Both the position numbers and the translations under genes were made by a program. From the NCBI GenBank assembly GCA_903843125.1, contig CAIMOR010000337.1:1-47891 (forward strand): a stretch of 47,891 nt of DNA, written 5' to 3'. This document shows, piece after piece, positions 3,355 to 46,316 of this stretch (position 1 is the stretch's first letter; each line of letters opens with the position of its first letter). The stretch is from an uncultured Rhodospirillales bacterium (GTDB taxonomy: Bacteria > Pseudomonadota > Alphaproteobacteria > Acetobacterales > Acetobacteraceae). The notes below the pieces were generated by a model, which was not told the DNA's origin, searched no databases, and saw only the letters and a program-made list of their open reading frames with translations.

Positions 3355-3866
3355 GCCACCTGCTGCTGGCCGAGTTCGCCGACCCCGACACGCTGCTGAC
3401 CGCGGCGCGCCGGGCACGCGACGCCCGCATGGCCGGGCTGGACGCGTACGTGCCGTTCCATGTCGAGGGCTTGCCTGAGGCGTTGGGGCTGCGGCCGCCG
3501 GCGTTGCGGGAGGCGATGCTGCTGTCCGGTCTGGCCACGGCGGTGCTGGCCTTCGCGGTGCAGTGGTTCAGCGCGGTGCAGGACTATCCGCTGAACCTCG
3601 GCAGCCGGCCGCTCGGCAGCTGGCAGGCCTTCGTCATTCCCTGCTTCGAGATCGGCGTGCTGGCGGCGGGCTTCGCCGGCCTTGCCGGGCTGCTGCGCGG
3701 TGCCGGGCTGCCGCGGCCGCACCAGCCGCTGTTTGCGGTGCCGGGCTTCGAGCGGGCCAGCCAGGACCGCTTCTTCCTGGCGGTCGACGACCCCGCGGTA
3801 GGGCGGCAGCGGCTGCAGGAGGCGCTGGACGGGCTGGCGCCGCTCTCGCTGCATGAGGTGGGGTGA
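3351..3866 (+). CDS. actD: Alternative Complex III subunit ActD (DUF3341)
   Basis: Protein of 171 residues matching the DUF3341/ActD family. It has a short soluble N-terminal part that starts like a small-ligand-binding domain (LLLAEFADPDTLLTAARRA). A hydrophobic hairpin of two helices follows at about residues 48-68 and 85-110, and then a cytoplasmic C-terminal tail with 'DRFFLAVDDP'. In Alternative Complex III ActD sits beside ActC and has no redox cofactor, and I see no heme or cysteine cluster here. The ATG at 3351 overlaps the actC stop (ATGA). It is the third gene of the act-cox operon. Confidence 0.9.
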   Translation: MSHLLLAEFADPDTLLTAARRARDARMAGLDAYVPFHVEGLPEALGLRPPALREAMLLSGLATAVLAFAVQWFSAVQDYPLNLGSRPLGSWQAFVIPCFEIGVLAAGFAGLAGLLRGAGLPRPHQPLFAVPGFERASQDRFFLAVDDPAVGRQRLQEALDGLAPLSLHEVG

Positions 3867-4372
3867 TGCGGCACCACGCCCTGTTGCTGGCGCTGCTGCC
3901 CCTGCTGGGCTGCAAGCAGGATATGGCGCGCCAGCGCCGGCTGGGGCCGGATGCGCCGAGCGCGCTGTTCGGTGGTGGCACCGCCGCGCAGCCGCTGCCG
4001 GCGGGCGTGGTGCCGCAGGAGGACGCGGGGCCGCTGACGCCATCGCCGGTGAACGCGGCGCTGCTGGAACGCGGCCGCGAACGCTACGGCATCTTCTGCT
4101 CGCCCTGCCATGGCCTGGGCGGGGATGGCGACGGCATGGTGGTACGGCACGGCTTCCCGCCGCCGCCGAGCCTGCATTTGGCGCGGCTGCGCGCAGCGCC
4201 TGGGCAGCACTTCTTCGACGTCATCACCCAAGGCCATGGGGTGATGTACTCCTACGCCACGCGGGTGGCGCCGCCGGACCGCTGGGCCATCGCCGCCTAT
4301 GTGCGGGCGCTGCAGCTTGCCCGCCGCGTCGCGCTGGCCGAGGTGCCTGATGCGCGGGAGCGCCTGCCATGA
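3866..4372 (+). CDS. actE: Alternative Complex III monoheme cytochrome c ActE
   Basis: Monoheme c-type cytochrome of about 168 residues. It starts with a short hydrophobic leader ending in LLGC near residue 16, which looks like a lipobox, so it is probably an outer-face lipoprotein. The single heme motif is CSPCH near residue 78, in the context 'GIFCSPCHGLGGDGDG'. 'GHGVMYSYA' near residue 128 is likely to supply the methionine ligand. In this family ActE takes electrons from the complex towards the oxidase. The ATG at 3866 shares one base with the actD stop; the GTG one codon upstream at 3863 is an alternative start. Confidence 0.9.
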   Translation: MRHHALLLALLPLLGCKQDMARQRRLGPDAPSALFGGGTAAQPLPAGVVPQEDAGPLTPSPVNAALLERGRERYGIFCSPCHGLGGDGDGMVVRHGFPPPPSLHLARLRAAPGQHFFDVITQGHGVMYSYATRVAPPDRWAIAAYVRALQLARRVALAEVPDARERLP

Positions 4373-5370
4373 CGTGGCGCGTGCTCGGGCCGGCCGTCGC
4401 GGCAGCGGCGCTGCTGGGCTGGGCGGTGCTGGCGCCCTCGGCGGCCCTGGGTGCGGGGTGGCTGATCGCGATGCTGTTCTGGCTGGGCATTGCGCTGGGG
4501 GCGCTGGCATTGCTGGCGGTGGGCACCCTGACCGGCGGCCGCTGGTTGGCGGCCATGCGCCCCGGCCTGGCGCCCGCGGCAGCGACGGTGCCGGCCTTCC
4601 TGCTGGTCGGGCTGCCGTTGCTGCCGGCGATGCGCGGGCTCTACCCCTGGGTCACCCAACCCGAGGCGGCGGCACCCGGCGTGGCCGCGCTGTACCTGAA
4701 CCCGGCGGGCTGGTTGCTGCGTTCCGCGCTGGCGCTGGCCGGATGGTCGGTGCTGGCGCTGCTGCTGCGGCGAGACGGCGCGCCGCGGCTGGTGGCCGCG
4801 CTGGGGCTTTGCTTCCATGCCGTGGCGGTCAGCATGGTCGGCATGGATTGGGTGGTCTCGGCGACCCCGCGCTTTGTTTCCACCGCCTTCGGCACGGCGC
4901 TGGCGGTGACGCAGATGTTCGCGGCGCTGGCTTGGGTGGCGGTGCTGCGGGTGGTGCCGGCGGCGCGAGCCGCGGACCTGGGTGCCCTGCTGCTGGCGGC
5001 GACGCTCGGGACGCTCTACCTCGGCTTCGCGCAGTACCTCGTGATCTGGTACGGCAACCTGCCGGCGCAGGTGCCGTGGTACGTGGCGCGGCAGGCCAGC
5101 TGGTGGGGCTGGCTGGACGGCGCTGCGGTGGCCCTGTCGGCGCTGCTGCCGTTCGGCGTGCTGCTGCGGCAACGCTGGCGCGCTGACCCCGGCGCCCTGC
5201 AGCGGGTGGGCGGCGCGGTGCTGGTCGGGCTGCTGCTGCACCTGGCCTGGCTGGTGGCGCCGGGGCACGGCCTGGCAGCGCTGCTGGCGGCCGGGTTGGC
5301 GGTGGTGGCGATCGGCGGCGGCTGGCTGGCGCTGGCCGACCGGCGCCTGGGTGATGCCCATGGCCGCTGA
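4369..5370 (+). CDS. actF: Alternative Complex III membrane subunit ActF
   Basis: Integral membrane protein of 333 residues with around ten hydrophobic segments. It fits ActF, the second large membrane subunit, which in solved complexes is structurally related to ActC but lacks a quinol site. Supporting features are its place directly after actE, the segment 'GMDWVVSATPRFVSTAFG' near residues 163-180, and 'YLVIWYGNLPAQVPWY' near 223-238, which is typical of the family. It is somewhat shorter than many ActF proteins (about 400 residues). The start overlaps the actE stop as ATGA. Confidence 0.88.
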   Translation: MTWRVLGPAVAAAALLGWAVLAPSAALGAGWLIAMLFWLGIALGALALLAVGTLTGGRWLAAMRPGLAPAAATVPAFLLVGLPLLPAMRGLYPWVTQPEAAAPGVAALYLNPAGWLLRSALALAGWSVLALLLRRDGAPRLVAALGLCFHAVAVSMVGMDWVVSATPRFVSTAFGTALAVTQMFAALAWVAVLRVVPAARAADLGALLLAATLGTLYLGFAQYLVIWYGNLPAQVPWYVARQASWWGWLDGAAVALSALLPFGVLLRQRWRADPGALQRVGGAVLVGLLLHLAWLVAPGHGLAALLAAGLAVVAIGGGWLALADRRLGDAHGR

Positions 5371-5692
5371 ACCCCGGCGCGAGCGGGAGGACGTGGCCAC
5401 CTGGCGCGTGCTGGCGGTGGCGCTGGGCACGCTCGGCTTCATGCTGGTCTCGCTGGCGGCGCTCTGGTGGTTCTATGGCTGGATGGGCGGGCGGCAGGCC
5501 GCCGCGGCGCCGCCGCCGCCGATGGCCCCAGACCGTGCTGCGCCATTGCGGGCGTTCCGCGCAGCGCAGCACGAAGCGGTGGAGGGCTATGGCTGGGTGG
5601 ACCGCGAGGCCGGCCTGGTGCGGGTGCCGGTCGAGCGCGCCATGGGCCTGGTGGTGCAGCGCGGCGCCGCCGCCTACGAGCCCCTGCCATGA
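5360..5692 (+). CDS. Small single-span membrane protein of the act-cox operon
   Basis: Protein of about 110 residues with one membrane helix near residues 20-42, then a proline/alanine-rich linker. A conserved-looking tail follows, 'YGWVDREAGLVRVPVERAM'. That tail resembles small proteins I associate with cytochrome oxidase or Alternative Complex III operons, and it occupies the place where other organisms carry a small ActG-like subunit, but I cannot assign it firmly. I chose the ATG at 5360 because a GGTGA ribosome-binding sequence lies just upstream. The GTG at 5351 and ATG at 5354 are alternatives. It overlaps actF upstream and the SCO gene downstream (ATGA). Confidence 0.75.
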   Translation: MAAEPRREREDVATWRVLAVALGTLGFMLVSLAALWWFYGWMGGRQAAAAPPPPMAPDRAAPLRAFRAAQHEAVEGYGWVDREAGLVRVPVERAMGLVVQRGAAAYEPLP

Positions 5693-6371
5693 GGGTTCTG
5701 CTGCTGGCCCTGCTGCTGGTGGGCACGGCGCAGGCCTCGCCCGGGCTGGTGCCGCCTGAGGGCGCGCGGCTGCCGCTGGCGGCGCGGCTGCAGGATCAGC
5801 ACGGCCGCTGGCAGACGCTGGGCGCGGCGCTGGCCGGTCATCCCGCCGTGGTCGTCTTCGCCGATTGGACCTGCCGGGCACTGTGCGGCACCTCGCTGGG
5901 CCTGGCGCGAATGGCGCTGGCCGAGGGCGGCGTGCCCGAGGTGCGGCTGGTGGCGCTTGGGCTAGACCCGCGCGACGGGCCGGCCGACGCCCTGGCCATG
6001 GCCGGCGACGACGTGCTGGCGCTCTCGGGTGATGCCGCGACGGTGGCGGCGCTGACCGCGGCGGTTGGGCTGCACGCCGAGTTCGACGCGGCCAACGACC
6101 AGTTCGTGCATCCCGTCGCCCTGCTGGTGGTGGCGGCCGATGGCCGGCTGCTGCGCGTGCTGCCCGGCTTCGGCTTGGCGCCGGAGGAGTTGAGCGCGGC
6201 GGTGCGGGGCGAGCCCGACCGCTGGCAGCGCCTGCTGCTGATGTGCCACCAGGCGCTGCAGGCAGGGCCTGGTCGCTGGGCCTTGCCCGCGTTGAGCCTT
6301 GCCGCCACGGTGACGCTGCTGGTGGTGGGCGGCTGGCTGCTGCGGTTGCGCCGGCACGGGGCGCCGCGCTG

Positions 6372-6372
<1 letters not shown>
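5689..6372 (+). CDS. SCO1/SenC-type copper chaperone, C-terminally anchored
   Basis: Thioredoxin-fold SCO protein of 227 residues. It starts with a probable signal peptide (MRVLLLALLLVGTAQA). The copper-binding CxxxC is in 'DWTCRALCG' near residue 64, and the partner histidine is in 'QFVHPVALL' near residue 144. These proteins deliver copper to the CuA centre of cytochrome c oxidase, which fits its position immediately before coxB. It also has a hydrophobic helix near the C-terminus (about residues 203-220), so it is probably anchored at that end. The ATG overlaps the preceding stop as ATGA. Confidence 0.85.
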
Positions 6373-7309
<937 letters not shown>

Positions 7310-7313
<4 letters not shown>

Positions 7314-8989
7314 GCGAGGTAGCCTTCGACCCCACCGCGCCGCATGGCGTGCATCCGCCGAGCTACCTGACCGCCGGCCATACGCTGCGGTCCTGGCTGA
7401 CCACCACCGACCACAAGCGCATCGCCATCCTGTACATGCTGGCGCTGACGCTGTTCTTCTTCATCGGCGGCATCGCCGCGGCGCTGATCCGGCTGGAGCT
7501 GTTCACCCCGGCCGGCGACCTGCTGACCGCCGAGGGCTACAACCGCGCCTTCACGCTGCACGGCGTCATCATGGTGTGGTTCTTCCTGGTGCCGTCCATC
7601 CCGGTCACGCTGGGCAACTTCCTGGTGCCGCTGATGATCGGCGCCGAGGACATGGCCTTCCCGCGGCTGAACCTGCTGAGCTGGTACATCTTCATGGCCG
7701 CCGGGCTGCTGGCCGCCTTCACCATTCTGGCCGGCGGCGTGGAGACCGGCTGGACCTTCTACACGCCGTTGGCCACCGCCTTTGCCAACGGCAACGTGCT
7801 GGCGGCGGCGGGCGCGGTCTTCGTCGCCGGCTTCTCCAGCATCGCCACCGGCGTCAACCTCATCGCCACCATCCATACCCAGCGCGCCCCGGGCATGACC
7901 TGGTTCCGCCTGCCGCTGTTCGTCTGGGGCATGTACACGGTCAGCATCGTCATCGTGCTGGCAACCCCGGTGCTGGCCATGGCGCTGCTGCTGATCATGG
8001 CCGAGCGCGGCCTGGGCCTGCCGATCTTCGATCCCGCGCATGGCGGTGACCCGCTGCTGTTCCAGCACCTGTTCTGGTTCTACAGCCACCCTGCGGTCTA
8101 CATCATGATCCTGCCGTCCTTCGGCGTGATCAGCGAACTGGTCACCTGCTTCGCCCGGCGCCGCATCTTCGGCTACGAGTTCATGGTCTACGCCATGGCC
8201 TGGATCAGCATTGTCGGCTTCCTGGTGTGGGGCCACCACATGTTCGTCTCGGGCATGTCCTCCTACGCCAGCCTGGTGTTCTCCTTCCTGTCCTTCGTCG
8301 TCGCGGTGCCCTCGGCGATCAAGGTGTTCAACTGGACCTTCACCTTCTACCGCGGGGAGATCGGGTTCGCGGCGCCGATGCTCTACGCCATCGGCTTCAT
8401 CGGGCTGTTCACCGTGGGCGGGCTGACCGGGTTGTTCCTCGCCTCCGTGCCGGTGGACGTGCACGTGACCGACACCTACTTCGTCGTGGCCCATTTCCAC
8501 TACATCATGGTCGGCGGCGCGGTCTCCGCCTTCTATGGCGGGCTGCACTTCTGGTGGCCGAAGATCACCGGTCGGCTGTACCCGGAAGCCTGGGCGCGCT
8601 TCGCCGCGGTGCTGATGTTCTTCGGCTTCGCCTTCACCTTCACGCCGATGTTCCTGATGGGCTTCCTCGGCATGCCCAGGCGCTACTACAGCTATCCGGC
8701 GGAGTTCCAGATCTGGCATGTGCTGGCTTCCGCCGGCGCGTTGCTGCTGGCCTTCGCCTACCTGCTGCCGATGGCCTACCTGGCCTGGTCGCTGCGCTGG
8801 GGGCGCCGCGCCGGCGACAACCCGTGGCAGGCGACAGGCCTGGAATGGAGCACCACCTCGCCGCCGCCGCCGCACAACTTCGCCACCATGCCGCGCGTGG
8901 CTGAAGGCCCCTACCTGTACCATCCGGCGGAGACCGGCCCGCAGCATGGCCAGCCCGAACCCGAACAGAAGCAGGGCGACCACCCGTGA
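7310..8989 (+). CDS. coxA: Cytochrome c oxidase subunit I, A2-type
   Basis: Catalytic subunit of a heme-copper oxygen reductase, 559 residues with about twelve helices. It reduces oxygen at a heme a3/CuB site and pumps protons. Visible landmarks are the low-spin heme ligand in 'FTLHGVIMVWFF', the cross-linked His-Tyr pair in 'YSHPAVYIMILP', 'WGHHMFVSG' (two CuB histidines) and 'AHFHYIMVGG' (heme ligands). The residue after HP is Ala rather than Glu and the motif is preceded by Tyr-Ser, which is the A2-type signature. The GTG at 7310 overlaps the coxB stop as GTGA; the open frame reaching back to 6983 lies within coxB and is not coding. Confidence 0.95.
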
Positions 8990-21333: not shown

Positions 21334-23541
21334 TCAGTCCGTCTGGTTCAGGCCGCCGTCTGGGCGAGCATGGCGCACCAGCTGCTCCAGCACCTCGGTA
21401 GCGCGGCTGATGGAGGCGCTGACGCTGTCAAGCATCGCGGGCATGCGGGGCATCTCGACGCCGTCGGTGATCTCCAGCGCCGCCAGCCGGGCGTTCTCCA
21501 GCAGGGAGACGAACAGCCGCCGGAATGCGGCATCGTGGGCCAGCTCGAGCTGACCGGCCTTCAGCCGGTGCATCGCCACGATCCCGTCCTGGAAGCGGTC
21601 CCGTGCGGCCTGCGCCGCCTGGCGCTCGCCCAGGTCGGTGAACAGGAAGACGAAGCCAAGCACCGTCTCGGTGGCGTTGCAGACCGGGTCGGCGCGCAGC
21701 AGCAGGCGGCGGCCGCCATCCGGGCCTTCCCGCAGCCGCACGTCGCCGTGCCAGCTGCGCTGCCGCAGCAACAGGTCGTCCAGCCGGCTGCGCATCCCCG
21801 GCGGGTCGGCCAGGTGCTCCAGCAGTTCCTCCACGCGTTCGGGCGCGGCCACGGGCTGGCCGCCCGGCGCGGGCGGCAGCAGCTGCATGAAGGCGGCGTT
21901 GGTCAGCGTCACCCGGCCCGCGGCGTCGGCGATCAGCAGCGGCTGGTCAGAGACCGCGACCTGGCGCCGAACCTGGGCCAGCTGGTCCTGGGCAATGACC
22001 AGGCGGACCGAGCGGAACTGCAGCACCACGTCAGCCAGGGTGTCCCCCAACAGGCGGGCGGTGGTCAGGTCGCTGGCCGACCACGGCTCGCAGGTGCCTT
22101 CCACCACCTGGTGCCACTGCGTGAAGGAACGCCGGGGCGAGAGGTCGGCCGGGCTGTTGCCGACGATCACCGGCTTGAACGGGTTGCCGCCCCAGGTCAG
22201 CCGGCGGATGCGCTCGGGCCGGAACCAGATCAGGTATTCACCGGGCGTGGGGGAGACCGGGGTGGCCAGCAGGCCGGCGGCGGTGGTGCGCAGTTGCGGC
22301 AGGTCCGCCAGCTCGCCGGCCAGGGTGTTGCTGGCCACCACCTCCTGCGGCGGTTGGCCGGCCAGCCAGGCGCTGATGCGGCGCAGCTCAGGCGAGCCGG
22401 GTACTTCGCCGGCGGTCAGCACCTGGCCCTCGAACAGGAGGGCCGCGCCGGTGGCGTCCAGCGCCTGCAGCAGCGGCTGTGGGTTGTCGAACAGCGCGCC
22501 CCGCCAATCCCCGGCGCGGGAAATGCTCTCGATCATCCGCTGTTCCAGCCGGCGCACCGTCAGCTCGGCCTGCGCCTGGACGAAGCTTTCCAGCGCCGCG
22601 ATCCTGGTGCCCAGCGCCTCGGCCAACAGTTCGCACACCGCGCGCTGCTCGAACGGCAGGAAGCGGGCGGAGTAGTGGTGGCAGGAGACCAGCCCCCACA
22701 GCTTGCCGCCGACCATGATGGACGCCACCAGCGTGGCCGCCACGCCCATGTTCTTCAGGTACTGCACGTGGATCGGCGAACTGCTGCGCAGGAAGCACAG
22801 CGACATGTCGAGGTCGGCATCGGTGAAGGGCGACAGCCTTGGCTGCAGCGGCACCGGCGTGAAGTTGACGTCCACCAGCAGCCGGACGCGATTGCGCTCA
22901 TACAGCCGGCGGGCGATCTGCGGAATGTCCGAGGCCGGGTAGCGGTTGCCGCGATAGGGCTCAAGGTGTGGTTCGCGCTCCTCGGCGAAGACCTCGCCAT
23001 GGCCGTCGTCGTCGAAGCGGTAGACCATCACGCGGTCGTAGCCGGTGAGGTGACGGAAGGCGCGGGCCGCGGCGTCGCACAGCGTGGTCAGCGTGTAGCT
23101 GCCCAGCATGGCGCGGAGCCCGCTGTGCACCAGTTGGTCCAGGTCCACCGGCGCACCGGCCGGTGCCAGTTCCACCACCAGGCCGCCGCCTTTCGGGCGG
23201 TGCAGCAGGGCGTCCAGGTTGGTGGCGGGGTGGCCTGCGCGGCACCGCACCATGGTCGGGATGATGTCGAGCGGTGAGTCCAGCGCGGGCCGGATGCGTT
23301 GGTGCAGATTGCCGCCGAGCCTGGCCAGCGTGCGGCCCAGCAGGCTGCCGTCCAGGCCGAGGAAGCTGGCGGCGTTGGCGCTGGCCTGGACGACAACCGT
23401 ATCGGCTTCGCGCACCAGCAGCAGGGCACCATAGGGCTGGACCGAAGCCGCCAGGTGGATCGGCTCGCGTTCGCAGTTGGATAGATCCGCCTCGCCAAAG
23501 GCCGGCTGTGCCGGGGACCCCGATGGCGAGCCGCGGATCAT
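21334..23541 (-). CDS. bphP: Bacteriophytochrome, PAS-GAF-PHY-PAS architecture without kinase
   Basis: Red/far-red photoreceptor of 735 residues. Cys23, in 'SNCEREPIHLAASVQPYG', is the biliverdin-attachment site of bacterial phytochromes. The GAF domain has 'YPASDIPQIARRLYERNR' near residue 200, with pocket histidines in 'SPIHVQYLKNMG' and 'LWGLVSCHHYS'. The PHY tongue carries the PRxSF motif (PRRSF near 467). The C-terminus holds a PAS domain (about 550-650) and a helical segment (about 655-725) that could be a two-helix output module. I see no histidine-kinase N, G1 or G2 boxes. This layout matches Rhodopseudomonas palustris BphP1, which acts by binding PpsR2. The ATG overlaps the ppsR stop as ATGA, so repressor and photoreceptor are translationally coupled. 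Confidence 0.93.
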   Translation of the reverse strand: MIRGSPSGSPAQPAFGEADLSNCEREPIHLAASVQPYGALLLVREADTVVVQASANAASFLGLDGSLLGRTLARLGGNLHQRIRPALDSPLDIIPTMVRCRAGHPATNLDALLHRPKGGGLVVELAPAGAPVDLDQLVHSGLRAMLGSYTLTTLCDAAARAFRHLTGYDRVMVYRFDDDGHGEVFAEEREPHLEPYRGNRYPASDIPQIARRLYERNRVRLLVDVNFTPVPLQPRLSPFTDADLDMSLCFLRSSSPIHVQYLKNMGVAATLVASIMVGGKLWGLVSCHHYSARFLPFEQRAVCELLAEALGTRIAALESFVQAQAELTVRRLEQRMIESISRAGDWRGALFDNPQPLLQALDATGAALLFEGQVLTAGEVPGSPELRRISAWLAGQPPQEVVASNTLAGELADLPQLRTTAAGLLATPVSPTPGEYLIWFRPERIRRLTWGGNPFKPVIVGNSPADLSPRRSFTQWHQVVEGTCEPWSASDLTTARLLGDTLADVVLQFRSVRLVIAQDQLAQVRRQVAVSDQPLLIADAAGRVTLTNAAFMQLLPPAPGGQPVAAPERVEELLEHLADPPGMRSRLDDLLLRQRSWHGDVRLREGPDGGRRLLLRADPVCNATETVLGFVFLFTDLGERQAAQAARDRFQDGIVAMHRLKAGQLELAHDAAFRRLFVSLLENARLAALEITDGVEMPRMPAMLDSVSASISRATEVLEQLVRHARPDGGLNQTD

Positions 23542-24965
23542 TCGGTATCCTCCCCACCACGGTCGATGCCGTGACGCTTGAGTTTACCATAGAGGCTCTG
23601 ACGGCTGAGTCCCAGCATATCCGCAGTGGCACGCCGATTGCCGTGGCAGCGTTGCAACGCCTTCTCGATGCAGTGCCGCTCGACGATGTCGGAGGTCAGG
23701 CGGACGAGCTCGGGCAGGGAATGGTCGCCCATGCCGGCGGTCAGCCCCTCAAGCACCGCACGCAGGTCGCGCGGGTCCTCGGCCGCTTGCAGGCGGCGAC
23801 TGACATCGCGCACCACCAGGCCGATCATGCCGTGCTCGCCGCTGACACTGGCGGCGGAAATCTCCACCTGCACGGTGCTGCCCAGCTCTCCGGTCAGGCT
23901 GGTGGCGAACAACCGCACCGCGCCGTGGCGGGCCAGGTTGGCGAGGATCACATCCAGGTCGGCACCGGATTGCTGCAGCCAGCGCCCCAAGCCTTGCCCC
24001 AGCACCACGGCGGGGGCGGCGGCCTGCGCCATGTCGAGGAAGGAAGTATTGGCCTGCAGCACCTCGCCGCGGCTGCTGGCCAGCACGATGCCGTCCGGCA
24101 GCCGTTCCAACAGGGCGGCGAGACCCGGAACAGGGAGTGTCTGGCCCGCCGATGCCTGGCCCGGCAATGCCTGGCCAGCCGGGGCAGCCAGCGGGCCCGG
24201 TGCTATGGGGCCGGGGGTGGTCGCGGCGGGCCAGGCCGCCGGTTCCAGCGGCAGGGGCGGGGTCAGGTGCAGCATGAACACCTGGCCCGGCTCGGTCGCC
24301 ATCAGCGAAGCGCGCATGGTCCAGGCCACCTGGCCGGCACCAACCCGGACGACGATGCCGGGCGCGCGGCCACCTTCCCGCGCCCGCTGCAGCATGCCGC
24401 GGAAGGAGGCGTGGTCGGCCGGCGCGATCTCATCCAGGATATGCCAGCCTGGCGCCACGCCCAGGCCGCGGATTGCGGCAGGATTGGCCTCCAGCACCTG
24501 CAGCGTCTCGGCGCCCACCAGCAGCACCGCCTCGCCCGAGCTGTCGAACAGGAAGCGCGAGCGGGTCTCGATCTCGCGCAGCTTCCAGTAGTCCTGCTCG
24601 CGGGCCCGCTGGGTGGCCAGCAGGCGGCTTTGCAACTCATCCACCGCCAGGCGGCTGCGGCCGACAACCACCAGGCCGCCCTTGGCGCCGACCCTCACCA
24701 GGGTATACTCTATTGGATATTCACGGCCGCTGGGGAAGCGCTGGGTCAGCGCGTGGAAAGCGGAGAGACCATGGCGATGGGCGTCCGCCATCATGCCGCG
24801 GATCTGCTCGCCCACCGGGGCGCCAACCGTGTCGGTCCAGGGGCGCCCAACCCAGGCGCTGACGCTCTCCTCCGGCAGGTTGGCCGAGACCGTCGCTTCC
24901 AGGATCACGCCGTCCTTGTCCAGGCTGAGGGTGATGTCGGACGAGGCGAGGGTGACGCCGGTCAT
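23538..24965 (-). CDS. ppsR: Photosynthesis gene repressor PpsR/CrtJ
   Basis: Transcription repressor of 475 residues. It contains an N-terminal domain, a Q-linker, two PAS domains (about 140-250 and 265-400) and a C-terminal Fis-type helix-turn-helix, 'NRRATADMLGLSRQSLYGKL'. PpsR represses bch, crt and puc genes under oxygen, binding TGT-N12-ACA sites as a tetramer. Only two cysteines are present, Cys432 and Cys440, both at the HTH. Cys432 aligns with the redox cysteine of Rhodobacter PpsR in 'ERHCIEKAL', while the PAS-domain cysteine is missing. A proline/glycine/glutamine-rich stretch separates the two PAS domains. It is followed by the overlapping bphP gene. Confidence 0.95.
   Translation of the reverse strand: MTGVTLASSDITLSLDKDGVILEATVSANLPEESVSAWVGRPWTDTVGAPVGEQIRGMMADAHRHGLSAFHALTQRFPSGREYPIEYTLVRVGAKGGLVVVGRSRLAVDELQSRLLATQRAREQDYWKLREIETRSRFLFDSSGEAVLLVGAETLQVLEANPAAIRGLGVAPGWHILDEIAPADHASFRGMLQRAREGGRAPGIVVRVGAGQVAWTMRASLMATEPGQVFMLHLTPPLPLEPAAWPAATTPGPIAPGPLAAPAGQALPGQASAGQTLPVPGLAALLERLPDGIVLASSRGEVLQANTSFLDMAQAAAPAVVLGQGLGRWLQQSGADLDVILANLARHGAVRLFATSLTGELGSTVQVEISAASVSGEHGMIGLVVRDVSRRLQAAEDPRDLRAVLEGLTAGMGDHSLPELVRLTSDIVERHCIEKALQRCHGNRRATADMLGLSRQSLYGKLKRHGIDRGGEDTE
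24142..24186. repeat. Three imperfect 15-bp tandem repeats inside ppsR
   Basis: Three consecutive 15-base units lie in the linker between the PAS domains of ppsR: TGGCCCGCCGATGCC, TGGCCCGGCAATGCC and the more diverged TGGCCAGCCGGGGCA. On the coding strand each gives a five-residue Gly-Gln-containing unit (GQASA/GQALP-like). The repeats keep the frame, so length variation would be tolerated. Confidence 0.7.
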
Positions 24966-25114: not shown

Positions 25115-26086
25115 TTATGGCAACGGCGCCGGCGTTTCGGCCAGGGTACGCAACCATGCGATGACGTCGGCCCGCTGCTGCGCATCCGGGATGCCGGTGA
25201 ACACCATGCGGGTGCCCGGCGCATAGGCGGCCGGGGCGCGCAGCCAGTCGTCCAACTCGGCATAGGTCCAGTTGCCGGGGTGGCCCTTGAGGCCGGCCGA
25301 ATAATTGAAACCCTCCATATGGCCGTGCGGTGCGCCCACCACGCCCCACAGGTTCGGCCCTACGCCGGCGCGGCCACCCTGGTTGAAGGTGTGGCACACC
25401 GCGCAGATGCGCTTGGCATAGGCCTCGCCCCGGGCGGCGTCGGCGCTGGCGAGACGGGCCTTGATATCGGGCACCGCCGGCGCGGCGGGGGCAGCCTGGC
25501 CGGCGGCGGCCGGCTGGGCAGGGGCCGCGGGGGCCGGGGCCGCCGCTGGCGGCAGCGGCTGTGGATTGGGCGAGAGCGTGCGCAGCCACGCGATCACATC
25601 GGCCCGCTGCTGGGTATTGGGAAGCCCGGCGAAGGCCATGCGCGTGCCCGGCGCGTAGCTGGCCGGACGATAGAGCCATTCGTTCAGCGCATCGTAGGTC
25701 CAGGGGCCAGGCTTGCCCTTCAACGCCGCCGAATAGGTGAAGCCCTCCATGTGGCCGTGCGGGCCACCGACCACGCCGTACAGGTTGGGGCCGACGCCCG
25801 CCTTGCCGCCTTCGTTGAAGCTGTGGCAGGCGGCGCAGTTGCGCTGCGCCAGTTGCTGGCCGCGCTGCACGTCGGCCTGTGCCAGCAGGCCGGCGATCGG
25901 CTCCGGCCCGGCCGGGGCGGCGGGAGCGCCGGGGGCCGCTGGCGCCGTCAGGTTCGGGATGGGGATGGCGGTCTTGGCCGGCGGCTCCGGATGGACCAGC
26001 ACCCCCGCGACGATGCCGGTTACCGCGAAGGCGATGCCGGCGCTGAGCAGCGCCGCCGCGGCCTTGTTGAACTCCATCGAAGCCAT
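25115..26086 (-). CDS. Membrane-anchored diheme cytochrome c with two duplicated domains
   Basis: Protein of 323 residues. It has an uncleaved-looking N-terminal helix (about residues 8-32), a proline/alanine-rich tether, and two class I cytochrome c domains. Heme motifs are Cys84-Ala-Ala-Cys87-His88 and Cys228-Ala-Val-Cys231-His232, and 'YAPGTRM' supplies methionine ligands at Met150 and Met294. The domains resemble mitochondrial/cytochrome c2 type. They are about three-quarters identical over 75 residues, so the duplication is internal and fairly recent. It lies 61 bp after pufC on the same strand, so a role as membrane-tethered electron donor to the reaction-centre cytochrome (a double-headed counterpart of cytochrome cy) is a reasonable inference. 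The oxidase operon could also use it. ATG 26086 chosen; 26077 is an alternative. Confidence 0.9.
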   Translation of the reverse strand: MASMEFNKAAAALLSAGIAFAVTGIVAGVLVHPEPPAKTAIPIPNLTAPAAPGAPAAPAGPEPIAGLLAQADVQRGQQLAQRNCAACHSFNEGGKAGVGPNLYGVVGGPHGHMEGFTYSAALKGKPGPWTYDALNEWLYRPASYAPGTRMAFAGLPNTQQRADVIAWLRTLSPNPQPLPPAAAPAPAAPAQPAAAGQAAPAAPAVPDIKARLASADAARGEAYAKRICAVCHTFNQGGRAGVGPNLWGVVGAPHGHMEGFNYSAGLKGHPGNWTYAELDDWLRAPAAYAPGTRMVFTGIPDAQQRADVIAWLRTLAETPAPLP

Positions 26087-26123
26087 GCGACGCGTATCCC
26101 TGCCAGCTTTTCCGACGCACTCA

Positions 26124-34472: not shown

Positions 34473-34516
34473 TGTAAGTTTGACGGTACATTTATAAATG
34501 TCAACTCAAATAGACA
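34473..34516. promoter_or_regulatory. Tandem PpsR operator pair upstream of bchC
   Basis: Two TGT-N12-ACA boxes, 34473-34490 (TGTAAGTTTGACGGTACA) and 34499-34516 (TGTCAACTCAAATAGACA), are separated by exactly 8 bp, the spacing PpsR/CrtJ favours for cooperative binding. Read on the minus strand the second box has the full TGTC-N10-GACA consensus and contains a TTGACA -35-like hexamer. The first box overlaps the likely -10. The second box also covers the crtF stop codon. Confidence 0.9.
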
Positions 34517-36561: not shown

Positions 36562-36605
36562 TGTAAGGTTAAATTGTCATTGGCAAATGTCAGTCTATGT
36601 GGACA
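36562..36605. promoter_or_regulatory. PpsR operator pair between crtE and crtD
   Basis: A consensus box TGTC-N10-GACA at 36588-36605 lies 8 bp from a half-degenerate partner at 36562-36579 (TGTAAGGTTAAATTGTCA, TGT-N12-TCA). The pair sits between the divergent crtE and crtD starts and could repress both. It covers the most upstream possible crtD start at 36597, which argues for a later start. Confidence 0.8.
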
Positions 36606-38132: not shown

Positions 38133-39040
38133 CCCCGCCGCCGCGCGGCTATCGCTGGTGGTATCTGGACGCGCTGAGCGACGACGGCGCCCACGGCCTG
38201 ACGATCATCGCCTTTCTCGGCAGCGTGTTCTCGCCCTGGTACGCCTGGGCGCGGCGCGGCGCCGCCGCCGCCGACCCGCTGGATCATTGCGCGGTGAACG
38301 TGGCGCTGTACGGCCGCGCCGGCAAGCGCTGGGCCATGACGGAACGCCCGCGGCAGGCGGTGGCGCGCGGGGCGGATTGGCTGGCGATCGGCCCCAGTTC
38401 GCTGCGCTGGGACGGTGAGGCGCTGGTGGTGCGCTTCGCCGAACGGAGCTGCCCGCTGCCCTATCGGATAACCGGCACGGTGCGGCTGCATCCTGGCGCC
38501 ATTTCGCGCAAAGTCTTCGCGCTGGATGCCGCCGGGCGCCACCATTGGCAGCCGATTGCGCCGCAGGGCCGGGTGGAGGTGGCGCTGAGCCAGCCCGCGC
38601 TGCGCTGGTCCGGTCCCGCCTATCTCGACAGCAATGCCGGCGAGGCGCCATTGGAGCAGGATTTCGTAAGCTGGGACTGGTGCCGTGCGCCGCTGCGCCA
38701 GGGGGCCGCCATTCTGTACAATGTGGAGCGGCGTGACGGCACTGCGCAGGCCCTGGCGCTGCGGGTGCGGCCGGATGGCAGCGTGGACCAGGTCTCGGCG
38801 CCACCGCCTGCTGCGCTGCCCCGCACCCGCTGGCGCCTGGCCCGGCCGACGCGCGCCGAGGCGCCGCCGCGGCTGCTGCAGACGCTGGAGGACGCGCCGT
38901 TCTACAGCCGCAGCGTCATCGCCACCCGGCTGCTGGGCGAAGACGTTACAGCGGTACACGAAAGCCTTTCATGCGACCGGTTCAGCGCCCTGCCGGTGCA
39001 GGCCATGCTGCCATTCCGTGCGCCGCGCGCGTGGCGCTAG
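38129..39040 (+). CDS. crtC: Carotenoid 1,2-hydratase CrtC (non-ATG start)
   Basis: Hydratase adding water to the 1,2 double bond of neurosporene or lycopene, about 300 residues. It is identified by 'GYRWWYLDALSDDG', 'FLGSVFSPWYAWAR', 'HCAVNVALYG', 'HYNVE'-like 'ILYNVERRDG' and 'EDAPFYSRSVI'. The conserved sequence starts right at the crtD stop, yet the frame has no ATG, GTG or TTG anywhere near. The best candidate is the CTG at 38129, which overlaps the crtD TGA as CTGA. The nearest ATG, at 37829, would overlap crtD by 300 bases. Its stop shares CTAG with an ORF on the other strand. Confidence 0.88.
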   Translation: MTPPPRGYRWWYLDALSDDGAHGLTIIAFLGSVFSPWYAWARRGAAAADPLDHCAVNVALYGRAGKRWAMTERPRQAVARGADWLAIGPSSLRWDGEALVVRFAERSCPLPYRITGTVRLHPGAISRKVFALDAAGRHHWQPIAPQGRVEVALSQPALRWSGPAYLDSNAGEAPLEQDFVSWDWCRAPLRQGAAILYNVERRDGTAQALALRVRPDGSVDQVSAPPPAALPRTRWRLARPTRAEAPPRLLQTLEDAPFYSRSVIATRLLGEDVTAVHESLSCDRFSALPVQAMLPFRAPRAWR

Positions 39041-39153
39041 CGCTGTTGCCGGTCTCGCCGCTGCGCGCGGCGCAGGGCCAGCAACTCCCACACCGCCAGG
39101 CCGAGAACCAGCAGCAGCATCAGCGCCCATTCGTACCGAGCTATGCTACCCAT
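39037..39153 (-). CDS. Candidate 38-residue single-span membrane protein
   Basis: A short frame runs opposite to crtC and tspO and fills most of the 139-base gap between them. The product starts MGSIARYEWALMLLL, has one hydrophobic helix (about residues 9-28) containing Trp and Glu, and ends in a strongly basic tail, QRRDRQQR. That is a plausible inside-positive membrane micro-protein. A weak AGGG lies before the ATG. Its TAG stop overlaps the crtC TAG as the palindrome CTAG. I recognise no family. Confidence 0.5.
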   Translation of the reverse strand: MGSIARYEWALMLLLVLGLAVWELLALRRAQRRDRQQR

Positions 39154-39179
39154 GTGATGCAGCCCTGGCGGAGATGGCG

Positions 39180-39653
39180 ATGAAGCGAGCGCAACCGGTT
39201 CTGGTGGCAGCAGGGGTGGCGCTGCTGGTGGCGCTCGTCGGCGGCAGCATGACCGATACCGGCCCCTGGTACCAAGCCCTGCACAAGCCGTCATGGCAGC
39301 CTCCGGGCTGGGCGTTCGGTCCGGCCTGGACGCTGATCTTCGCGCTGACCGTGCTTTCCGCGGTGCGCGCCTGGCGCGCGGCGCCGGGGCCGGGCGCACG
39401 CCGCGCCGTGGTGGCGCTGTACTGCCTGAACGGCCTGCTGAACGTGCTGTGGAGCGCGGTGTTCTTCGCGCTGCGCCGGCCCGACCAGGCGCTGGTGGAG
39501 GTGGTGTTCCTCTGGCTGTCGGTGCTGGTGCCATTGCTGGTGGTGCGGCGCTGGTCGGTTTCGGCGGCCTGGCTGTTGGTGCCCTACCTCGTCTGGGTGG
39601 CCTTCGCCGGCTGGCTGAACCTGGAGGTGGTGCGGCTGAACGGACCGTTCTGA
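39180..39653 (+). CDS. tspO: Tryptophan-rich sensory protein TspO/CrtK
   Basis: Five-helix membrane protein of 157 residues in the TspO/MBR (peripheral benzodiazepine receptor) family. Typical features are 'WYQALHKPSWQPPGWAFGPAWT' (shortened: KPSWQPPGWAFGPAWT) near residues 34-50, 'NGLLNVLWSAVFFALRRPD' near 85-103 and 'WVAFAGWLNLEVVRLN' at the end. In Rhodobacter TspO lowers pigment gene expression under oxygen, possibly by exporting porphyrin intermediates. It is often linked to crt genes, as here. ATG 39180 has GGAG seven bases upstream; ATG 39174 is possible. Confidence 0.93.
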   Translation: MKRAQPVLVAAGVALLVALVGGSMTDTGPWYQALHKPSWQPPGWAFGPAWTLIFALTVLSAVRAWRAAPGPGARRAVVALYCLNGLLNVLWSAVFFALRRPDQALVEVVFLWLSVLVPLLVVRRWSVSAAWLLVPYLVWVAFAGWLNLEVVRLNGPF

Positions 39654-42777: not shown

Positions 42778-42795
42778 TGTAAGAAGAAATTGACA
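42778..42795. promoter_or_regulatory. PpsR box upstream of crtI
   Basis: TGTAAGAAGAAATTGACA matches TGT-N12-ACA, with the GACA half of the consensus intact. It lies 10-27 bases before the crtI ATG. No second box is found 8 bp away, but a related box lies 57 bp further at the bciB start, so distant cooperative binding is possible. Confidence 0.78.
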
Positions 42796-45029: not shown

Positions 45030-46316
45030 TCAGCCCAGGTCGCGCCGGACCCGGTGGTGCATCTGCCGCACGCCGAGCGCCACGCCGGCCGCGATCAGCG
45101 GCAGTGACAGGCCGCTGAGCAGGTCGGCGTCCAGCTTCACGCCCGCGGCCTTCAGTCCCTTGGCCAGGTAGGCCACCAGCCCGACCAGGTAGTAGCTGAT
45201 GGCGGCCACCGAGAGCCCCTCCACCGTTTCCTGCAGGCGCAGCTGCAACTGGGCCCGGCGGTTCATGGTGGCCAGGGTGGCGTGGTTCTGCTGCTCCAGG
45301 GTGATGTCCACCCGGGTTGACAACAGTTGCGTGGTCCGCGCCATGCGCTGAGCCAGCGCCTGCTGCCGGGCGGCCACCGCGCGGCAGGTCTGCATGGCCG
45401 GTGCCACGCGGCGGTCGGTGAACTCCTGCAGGGTCTGCACGCCCTCGATCCGCTGCTCGCGCAGCTCCGCCACGCGGCGCTGCACCAGCTCCCAATAGGC
45501 TTCCGCGGCGCTGAAGCGGTAGCGGCTGACGGCGTCGTGCCGCTCGCTCTCGGCGGCAAGGCGGGTCAGGCGTTCCAGCAGCACCGGCTCGTCGGCTTGG
45601 CGGGCTGCGTCCAACGCCCCGGCAATCGCGGCCAGCTCGGTTTCCAAGCGGGTCAGCTCCGGCGCCAGGCGGCGCGCCACCGGCAGCGCCAGCAACGCCA
45701 TCATGCGGTAGGTGTCTATCTCCAGCAGGCGTTGCAGGCTGCGCCCGGCCTGGCGCGGCGACATGCCCTGGTCCTGCACCAGGAATCGGCTGAAGCCATC
45801 GGCGTGGATGCGGAAATCGGTCAGCGCCACCGCCAGCCCGCCGGCGATGGCGGAACCCACCAGCACGCTGCCGCCGAACAACCGGGCGCTGGCGCCGTCG
45901 AGGTCGAGCGGCACCGGACCGGCAGGCAGCAGCGCGGCGTGGCTGGCCACCAGCAGCCGGCCGGGCAGGGCGGCCACCCAGCCCGGCGGCACCGCCGAGA
46001 TCGCCGGCTGGGCAAAGGGGTCCTCGCCGGCGCCAGGGGTGATGAAGGTGCAGCGGCAGAACTCGGTATGGCGTTCCCATTTCAGCCGGAACGGGCCGAG
46101 ATCCGCGCTGAAGTGGTTGGCCTGGGGGGAAGGCGGCGCCAGCCCGCGCCGGCTGACCAGTGCGGCCACGGCCTCGCCATAGGCGTCGCGCTCGGTGCCC
46201 TCGGTCAGCGAGACCAGATAGGACAGGCGCAGCGGCGGGGTCATCGCCTCGGCCGGGCGGGCATGCACCTCGTCGTTCAGTTCCTGGCGCTGGGGATAGG
46301 CCGCCGGCAGCTGCAT
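45030..46316 (-). CDS. DUF3422 family membrane protein
   Basis: Protein of 428 residues matching DUF3422, a family of unknown function common in proteobacteria. The N-terminal 'RQELNDEVHARPAEA' near residue 10 is its signature. A central coiled-coil-like helical part (about 220-330) is followed by two hydrophobic helices near the C-terminus (about 370-415). The ATG shares one base with the bchO stop, so it is co-translated with bchD-bchO. It converges with the hydrolase after a 10-base gap. Linkage to bch genes here suggests expression with them, nothing more. Confidence 0.85.
   Translation of the reverse strand: MQLPAAYPQRQELNDEVHARPAEAMTPPLRLSYLVSLTEGTERDAYGEAVAALVSRRGLAPPSPQANHFSADLGPFRLKWERHTEFCRCTFITPGAGEDPFAQPAISAVPPGWVAALPGRLLVASHAALLPAGPVPLDLDGASARLFGGSVLVGSAIAGGLAVALTDFRIHADGFSRFLVQDQGMSPRQAGRSLQRLLEIDTYRMMALLALPVARRLAPELTRLETELAAIAGALDAARQADEPVLLERLTRLAAESERHDAVSRYRFSAAEAYWELVQRRVAELREQRIEGVQTLQEFTDRRVAPAMQTCRAVAARQQALAQRMARTTQLLSTRVDITLEQQNHATLATMNRRAQLQLRLQETVEGLSVAAISYYLVGLVAYLAKGLKAAGVKLDADLLSGLSLPLIAAGVALGVRQMHHRVRRDLG

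Follow-up and report, generated by a model that had tools for sequence, protein, structure and literature searches.

Does a bacterium that represses its photosynthesis genes with PpsR encode, in the same operon, the light sensor that would relieve this repression? The question is raised by a contig of an uncultured Rhodospirillales bacterium (family Acetobacteraceae; contig CAIMOR010000337.1 of assembly GCA_903843125.1), of which we analyzed positions 1 to 47,891 (i.e., 47,891 nucleotides, hereafter called the window). Positions 21,334 to 24,965 carry ppsR and, downstream of it, bphP, which encodes a bacteriophytochrome. Our comparisons make it very probable that the two genes form an operon for a repressor and its own far-red-controlled antirepressor, orthologous to PpsR2-BphP1 of Rhodopseudomonas palustris. 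The finding adds a member to a known kind of system; what makes it valuable are general rules drawn from many such pairs, rather than the gene order.

A bacteriophytochrome of the RpBphP1 type

Pfam places PAS_2, GAF, PHY, and PAS_4 domains in BphP, whose PAS-GAF-PHY core carries the N-terminal Cys and the DIP and PRxSF motifs expected of a bacteriophytochrome of the type of the R. palustris protein (RpBphP1). The best match in PDB is 4gw9 (residues 1 to 643; E = 1.9e-224), i.e., RpBphP1 without its HOS domain, and chains of 4gw9 also took the top four places in a Foldseek search with the AlphaFold model of BphP (46 sequences; mean predicted local distance difference test score, 86.1). An earlier, sequence-only reading of this DNA had proposed a match to the R. 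palustris pair. The structural database agrees with it, and domain order, key residues, and the lack of a kinase are shared with RpBphP1-PpsR2. For residue comparisons, we aligned 85 rows of ppsR-bphP pairs, two of which are exact repeats (L233 of L045 and L236 of L055), leaving 83 distinct pairs. Cys23, Asp205, and the P, R, S, and F residues of the PRxSF motif are invariant in all 83 distinct BphPs, including that of the window.

The description of BphP as lacking kinase motifs and ending in a PAS and a helical module also held. No HisKA or HATPase_c domain was detected in BphP by Pfam (E <= 0.01), and the C-terminal 212 amino acids, searched alone (E <= 0.5), matched three PAS families and gave one weak unrelated match, with no ATP-binding domain. 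The match to the NCBIfam BphP equivalog (NF041576) stops at residue 554 and attains 369.5 bits, against a cut-off of 1040. As in the output part of RpBphP1-type proteins, the PAS_4 domain is followed in the model by a predicted signaling helix (residues 638 to 664) and a predicted two-helix hairpin (670 to 692 and 697 to 725). The conserved hairpin stretch ENAQLAALEIT reads ENARLAALEIT in the window BphP and occurs in a weaker version in five beta-type proteins.

A hidden histidine kinase, with two-component output to a response regulator, had been set beforehand as the outcome that would tell against an antirepressor and was to be sought by structure prediction. The C-terminal hairpin is similar to a kinase dimerization domain, as remarked for HOS (PMC6899989), but the AlphaFold model has no kinase alpha/beta domain, the ATP-binding domain is absent by Pfam as well, and none of the 83 distinct relatives has a His at residues 680 to 692, within the ENAQLAALEI stretch. 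We therefore give this alternative almost no credence.

Linkage of bphP and ppsR

A search of the genome collection with the window BphP yielded 80 named loci, in 48 of which the match (42 to 65% identity) runs into the C-terminal part of the protein or to the end of the contig. In each of these 48, ppsR immediately precedes bphP on the same strand; bphP is truncated in L058, L069, L070, and L077, and ppsR is truncated in L042, which stands outside the aligned pairs. The other 32 phytochrome loci, with matches ending by residue 647, contained no PpsR match (E <= 1e-8), two of them (L087 and L105) having almost no upstream DNA.

Among 299 genomes of the order, 72 encode PpsR (99 copies), and 31 of these 72, to which the phytochrome search was confined, encode a phytochrome. 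Scoring took in the best 5 candidates per genome for PpsR and the best 3 for BphP, so that a further copy could be missed. A PHY gene lies within 3 kb of 25 ppsR genes in 23 genomes, always downstream and on the same strand. Two or three PpsRs are carried by 22 of the 23 genomes with the pair, and a single one is carried by 47 of the 49 without it. When all 299 genomes were searched with BphP, the matches of at least 657 bits were exactly the 25 ppsR-paired ones; the next match reached 339.6 bits and covered residues 16 to 550 only. BphPs of the window type and linked PpsRs (25 each in these genomes) always occur together.

The family containing Rhodopseudomonas has such a BphP in 21 of 198 genomes, with ppsR upstream in all 21 (two of them repeat named loci). 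Its Rhodopseudomonas-like content rests on locus L248, whose BphP aligns with the RpBphP1 sequence of 4gw9 over residues 1 to 634 (1288 bits). Pairs become rarer over a wider range, with two besides the window in 385 genomes of the class and two matches besides the window in 398 genomes of the phylum; delta- and gammaproteobacterial labels belong to metagenome-assembled genomes. The named, order, and family sets overlap, and the gene order rests on searches that allowed either side, one pairing step elsewhere having required bphP downstream.

Because the adjacency recurs in every examined locus with a relative of the window-type BphP, it is more than chance. The sequence-only reading had presented the repressor-first order as a contrast to R. 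palustris. This contrast disappears, since the Rhodopseudomonas-like locus L248 and the other 20 loci of its family have the same order, and across the three overlapping sets (48, 25, and 21 loci) repressor first is simply the rule. Gene adjacency and location at the photosynthesis cluster are likewise common to the R. palustris pair and the window. Judging by the one-to-one linkage, a repressor dedicated to far-red control seems to be widespread among Acetobacteraceae and their relatives and not confined to two genera.

The ATGA at which the ppsR stop and the bphP start overlap, reported previously, is confirmed by the reading frames (Table 1). Of the 48 named loci, 14, all Roseomonas-like by record title or tree position, would allow an overlap of 4 or 1 bases, and 4 of those 14 have an ATG at a 4-base overlap as in the window.

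Two other interpretations of such loci were rejected. Open frames of 1139 to 1209 amino acids around six BphPs of the order suggested a PpsR-BphP fusion; PpsR in those six genomes is a separate open frame (451 to 655 amino acids), and in L075, where inspected, the long frame (3549-7175) crosses the ppsR frame upstream (3559-4965) in another frame. The idea that any phytochrome beside ppsR suffices is contradicted by genome G445 (L224), in which a kinase-type phytochrome gene lies near a ppsR gene in opposite orientation and the PpsR lacks the tryptophan described below. This locus (G445:C122:1-7500), another sort of phytochrome-PpsR neighborhood, has a ppsR divergent from a gene, a phytochrome gene with a kinase-like C-terminus, and a response-regulator-like gene (the last two judged by eye).

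Two genomes carry two ppsR-bphP pairs each (G149, L137 and L143; G261, L138 and L139), and one of the 25 BphPs of the order (G149:C18) has an internal stop codon. Within the genus of the window, G181 and G289 have no PpsR at E <= 1e-20 and have phytochromes matching the sensory part of BphP only; this genus seems mixed in phototrophy.

Two PpsR clades with different neighbor genes

The window genome, like that of R. palustris (PMC6899989), encodes two PpsRs. The second one lies on another contig (C246; 444 bits), directly downstream of a gene for a B12-binding AerR-like protein, and shares this contig with the only heme oxygenase gene (PF01126) of the genome. The C246 genes make up a second regulator module, which may also supply biliverdin. 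Of the 80 unlinked PpsR genes, we checked the 30 whose loci have 1.5-kb flanks (the best TIGR02040 scorers), and each of them is preceded on its own strand by an AerR-like gene. It was found in 3 of the 48 named BphP-linked loci, elsewhere in the locus and on the opposite strand.

In a tree of 144 PpsR rows, a single change separates 64 linked from 80 unlinked proteins (Shimodaira-Hasegawa-like approximate likelihood ratio test [SH-aLRT] support, 95; quick search, root not inferred), and the window PpsR groups with the former. Over 26 pairs, in which two genomes are counted twice, BphP distances correlate with linked-PpsR distances (r = 0.85; partial, 0.73) more closely than with those of the other PpsR (r = 0.69; partial, 0.32); the shuffled-label test of these distances ignores relatedness. 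The tree split and this correlation suggest that the BphP-linked PpsR is an ancient lineage of its own that travels with its sensor.

The order aerR-ppsR1-bchG-bchP, to which contig C246 corresponds, is already in print for Bradyrhizobium, in a 2010 paper that describes the Bradyrhizobium BphP as unique among the four clusters compared (PMC2890560). An arrangement of two PpsRs with two sensors has so far been described for Bradyrhizobium and R. palustris. The AerR-CrtJ/PpsR system (B12 dependent, blue light) resembles the ppsR-bphP pair in that a photoreceptor gene lies directly beside ppsR; it differs in its unrelated chromophore and protein and in its tie to the other PpsR clade, and it corresponds to the separate second module of the window genome. 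The second PpsR, behind its AerR-like gene, may act at the operators of the BphP-linked PpsR as well, so that BphP-PpsR is probably one of a pair of regulators working on them.

A tryptophan in the Q-linker and a cysteine before the HTH

The window PpsR scores 378.4 bits against the TIGR02040 PpsR-CrtJ profile (cut-off, 275.4) and has PAS domains and a Fis-type helix-turn-helix (HTH). No single residue marks linked PpsRs better than Trp127, found in all 85 linked rows (83 of 83 distinct), in 1 of 79 unlinked PpsRs (one gap set aside), and in none of 22 further class-wide PpsRs. The lone unlinked bearer is the second PpsR of locus L059, on a contig that also carries a linked pair. Five beta-type linked PpsRs keep the Trp and lack several other markers of the linked clade. 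This marker was derived in the present analysis and not taken from the literature.

The helix bearing Trp127 falls inside the region of Q-PAS1, the fragment of PpsR2 (residues 101 to 251) used for BphP1 binding (PMC8993538), and the Q-linker is the docking site of AppA on RsPpsR (PMC3949515). AppA and LdaP (PMC12654162) are, like BphP, light-controlled antirepressors of PpsR. Unlike BphP, both are blue-light flavin proteins (for the AppA flavin, PMC4452267), LdaP being a LOV protein.

The position just before the HTH is more variable. At residue 432, the unlinked PpsRs have Cys in 57 of 80 cases (A, 11; S, 11; Y, 1), and the class-wide set has it in 22 of 22. We take this conserved Cys to be Cys424 of RsPpsR, judging by its distance from the C-terminus. 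The 83 distinct linked PpsRs are mixed (Y, 44; C, 21; F, 10; R, 3; L, 2; H, 1; S, 1; gap, 1), and the absence of Cys therefore does not define the BphP-linked clade. Within the Roseomonas-like branch (21 linked PpsRs, including that of the window), 19 have Cys and 2 have Arg, and all 21 loci of the Rhodopseudomonas-containing family have Tyr, in contrast to the Cys of the window. At least 5 changes are needed at this position among 63 linked rows; their direction depends on the root, and the tree is unrooted.

PpsR2 proteins without the HTH Cys, known from Bradyrhizobium and most R. palustris, have been described as dedicated to light (PMC4452267; PMC6899989). The window PpsR does not belong to this light-only subtype, since it has Cys432 at the presumed redox position, and it may combine far-red light with redox input. 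The Cys need not be a redox switch, because a change of the HTH Cys to Ala in Rubrivivax PpsR left aerobic repression intact (PMC4452267). If the combined input is real, the Roseomonas-like PpsR2, with Cys in a clade that mostly has Tyr or Phe, runs against the published division of labor between light and redox control, and the Cys-bearing variant opens this division to direct testing. The proposal that the window PpsR is degenerate was rejected: it departs at 7 of 88 conserved positions and ranks twelfth of 59 non-beta linked PpsRs.

Proposed mechanism and its alternatives

We propose that PpsR represses bch and crt promoters via TGTN12ACA sites. Biliverdin would be attached to BphP through Cys23 and could come from the heme oxygenase whose gene shares contig C246 with that of the second PpsR. 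In the dark, BphP would rest in its far-red-absorbing state, its C-terminal helices paired with each other; on conversion by far-red light, these helices would be released to bind the Q-linker and PAS1 of PpsR and so take the repressor off DNA. The R. palustris precedent is RpBphP1, reported to absorb far-red light in its dark state and to form a complex with PpsR2 following 760 nm light, but neither in the dark nor without HOS (PMC6899989), and by this analogy the window BphP is most likely a light-driven antirepressor. Through putative translational coupling, the overlapping start codon arrangement would hold BphP and PpsR near a fixed ratio. The second PpsR, encoded behind the gene for a B12-binding AerR-like protein, would respond to another signal, probably while binding the same operators. 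The window PpsR, through Cys432, may respond to redox state too, unlike the PpsR2 described for most strains.

The pair had also been named the likely regulator of PpsR operators in this DNA, a claim that survives in part. Operator-like sites do exist in the photosynthesis cluster, 4 of the 6 TGTN12ACA sites of the window lying between photosynthesis genes or at their starts, but none precedes ppsR-bphP, and the second PpsR may share these operators. Related operons differ from the window in this respect. Among the linked loci with enough upstream sequence, 28 of 63 have a site between -300 and +30 of the approximate ppsR start (shuffled sequences: mean, 2.9; largest, 9; coding control, 0), as do 28 of 58 after removal of near-identical upstream regions, which suggests feedback control of ppsR-bphP in these relatives. 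The locus with the second PpsR (L039) has two TGTN12ACA sites, a number reached in 46 of 200 shuffles; one of the two (7337-7354) lies upstream of the aerR-like gene.

Several observations weigh against the operon as a repressor with its own far-red antirepressor. The 6 sites of the whole window compare with 3.34 expected, and 11 of 100 shuffles gave as many, i.e., the sites are not enriched; no exact TGTN12ACA occurs between -300 and +30 of the approximate ppsR start of the window. The perfect match of Trp127 to linkage may reflect shared descent and not prove contact, because the linked group is one side of a single branch (one change on the tree). BphP itself deviates at 10 of the 165 positions whose conservation in the family is 95% or more, including H37Y, E126A, and L197R in the sensory part, so that its photocycle could differ. 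Compared with the Rhodopseudomonas-like protein of L248, its identity is 60% in the sensory module, 34% in PAS9, and 45% in the helical module.

These deviations, a further substitution at a conserved BphP position (P360A), the presence of Cys432, and the long end branch of the window PpsR (0.92) would fit a pair that is orthologous but whose BphP no longer switches with far-red light, leaving constitutive holding of PpsR or redox sensing. Such a loss seems improbable to us: Cys23, Asp205, and the PRxSF motif are all intact, as is the reading frame; the sensory module keeps its 60% identity; and the plain distances put neither protein among the outliers (ranks 7 and 9 of 26).

The sign of the effect is not fixed by any sequence feature, and the same pair could work in the opposite direction, with lit BphP stabilizing PpsR on DNA, or PpsR acting as an activator; pigment synthesis would then fall under far-red light. 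There are precedents in PpsR1 of Bradyrhizobium, described as an activator (PMC10569730), and in CrtJ, which can act as repressor or activator (PMC9144470). However, the window PpsR belongs to the BphP-linked clade, and the characterized PpsR2s are described as repressors relieved by BphP (PMC10569730; PMC6899989), which makes the inverted sign unlikely. We retain far-red relief of repression as the preferred reading of the pair.

A near-infrared optogenetic tool has been built on BphP1-PpsR2, a pair characterized in detail in R. palustris. The window pair and the 82 other distinct pairs are natural variants from which faster, smaller, or tighter pairs might be picked, and Trp127 is a specific residue with which to probe how BphP recognizes PpsR. 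More broadly and more tentatively, with rather more doubt than trust, we suggest that many purple bacteria run two anciently separated PpsRs on shared operators, PpsR1 with AerR (blue light) and PpsR2 with BphP (far-red light), that the Q-linker Trp marks and perhaps makes the partnership with BphP, and that the Roseomonas-like PpsR2 integrates far-red and redox signals. In open-licence PubMed Central full text, we recognized no description of the pair in Acetobacteraceae, of the two clades across many genera, or of the Trp marker; the main text of an Acetobacteraceae phylogeny (PMC10715153) does not mention ppsR, phytochrome, crtJ, aerR, bphP, or PGC.

Features and gene neighborhood

Table 1. 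Positions of the features discussed (window coordinates unless a locus is named)
Feature	Position	Strand	Basis or remark
ppsR, BphP-linked clade (PpsR2 type), 475 amino acids	23538..24965	-	N-PAS, Q-linker helix, PAS1, disordered linker (residues 242-277), PAS2, HTH
bphP, kinase-less bacteriophytochrome, 735 amino acids; RpBphP1 ortholog	21334..23541	-	PAS-GAF-PHY-PAS-two helices
ATGA shared by the ppsR stop codon and the bphP start codon	23538..23541	-	Reading frames and sequence
GGGGAGGA, Shine-Dalgarno-like, inside ppsR, with the bphP ATG 6 bases further on	23548..23555	-	Sequence; putative function
PpsR Q-linker helix, residues 105-142	24540..24653	-	Model
PpsR Trp127 (TGG)	24585..24587	-	83/83 distinct BphP-linked PpsRs, 1/101 others
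PpsR Cys432 (TGC), just before the HTH, presumed redox position	23670..23672	-	Alignment
PpsR C-terminal helices with Fis-type HTH, residues 417-464	23574..23717	-	Pfam and model
BphP Cys23, expected biliverdin attachment site	23473..23475	-	Cys in 83/83 distinct aligned BphPs of the RpBphP1 type
BphP C-terminal PAS domain, residues 531-641	21619..21951	-	Pfam and model
BphP C-terminal helical module, residues 638-725, presumed counterpart of the RpBphP1 HOS output	21367..21630	-	Alignment and model; compared with PMC6899989
Tandem TGTN12ACA at the bchC start, likely PpsR operators	34473..34516 (34473-34490, 34499-34516)	.	
TGTN12ACA between crtD and the divergent gene for a crtE-like prenyl synthase, likely PpsR operator	36588..36605	.	
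TGTN12ACA between crtI-family gene (-) and FrhB-type reductase gene (+), likely PpsR operator	42778..42795	.	
TGTN12ACA in the crt/bch part of the window	45305..45322	.	
Second module, window genome contig C246: AerR-like gene, second PpsR, UbiA-family gene, one frame, bchP, porphobilinogen-deaminase-like, coproporphyrinogen-oxidase-like, heme oxygenase	L039:7552-16147		

A cytochrome c gene, pufC, pufM, pufL, bchZ, bchY, and then bchX and bchC lie upstream of ppsR on the same strand, in agreement with the earlier placement of the pair beside the photosynthesis cluster. Downstream of bphP follow a gene for a luciferase-like monooxygenase and one for an ABC substrate-binding protein, and the pair therefore seems to lie at the edge of the cluster. 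A similar adjacency of bphP, ppsR2, and a cytochrome c gene within the photosynthesis cluster has been reported for photosynthetic Bradyrhizobium (BrBphP-PpsR2; PMC10569730), whose PpsR2, unlike that of the window, is described as lacking the HTH Cys (PMC10569730; PMC4452267). No terminator-like site was found in the window sequence between the cytochrome gene and ppsR. The cytochrome c protein encoded there, between pufC and ppsR (25115-26120, minus strand), has two class I domains and no match of at least 60 bits in the other named loci, which reach at most about 3.7 kb before ppsR. Elsewhere in the photosynthesis cluster, a TspO-like gene lies by crtC (38685-39653, plus strand; 106.6 bits, under the curated cut-off of 180), and tspO has been reported near the BrBphP gene in one type of Bradyrhizobium cluster (PMC10569730).

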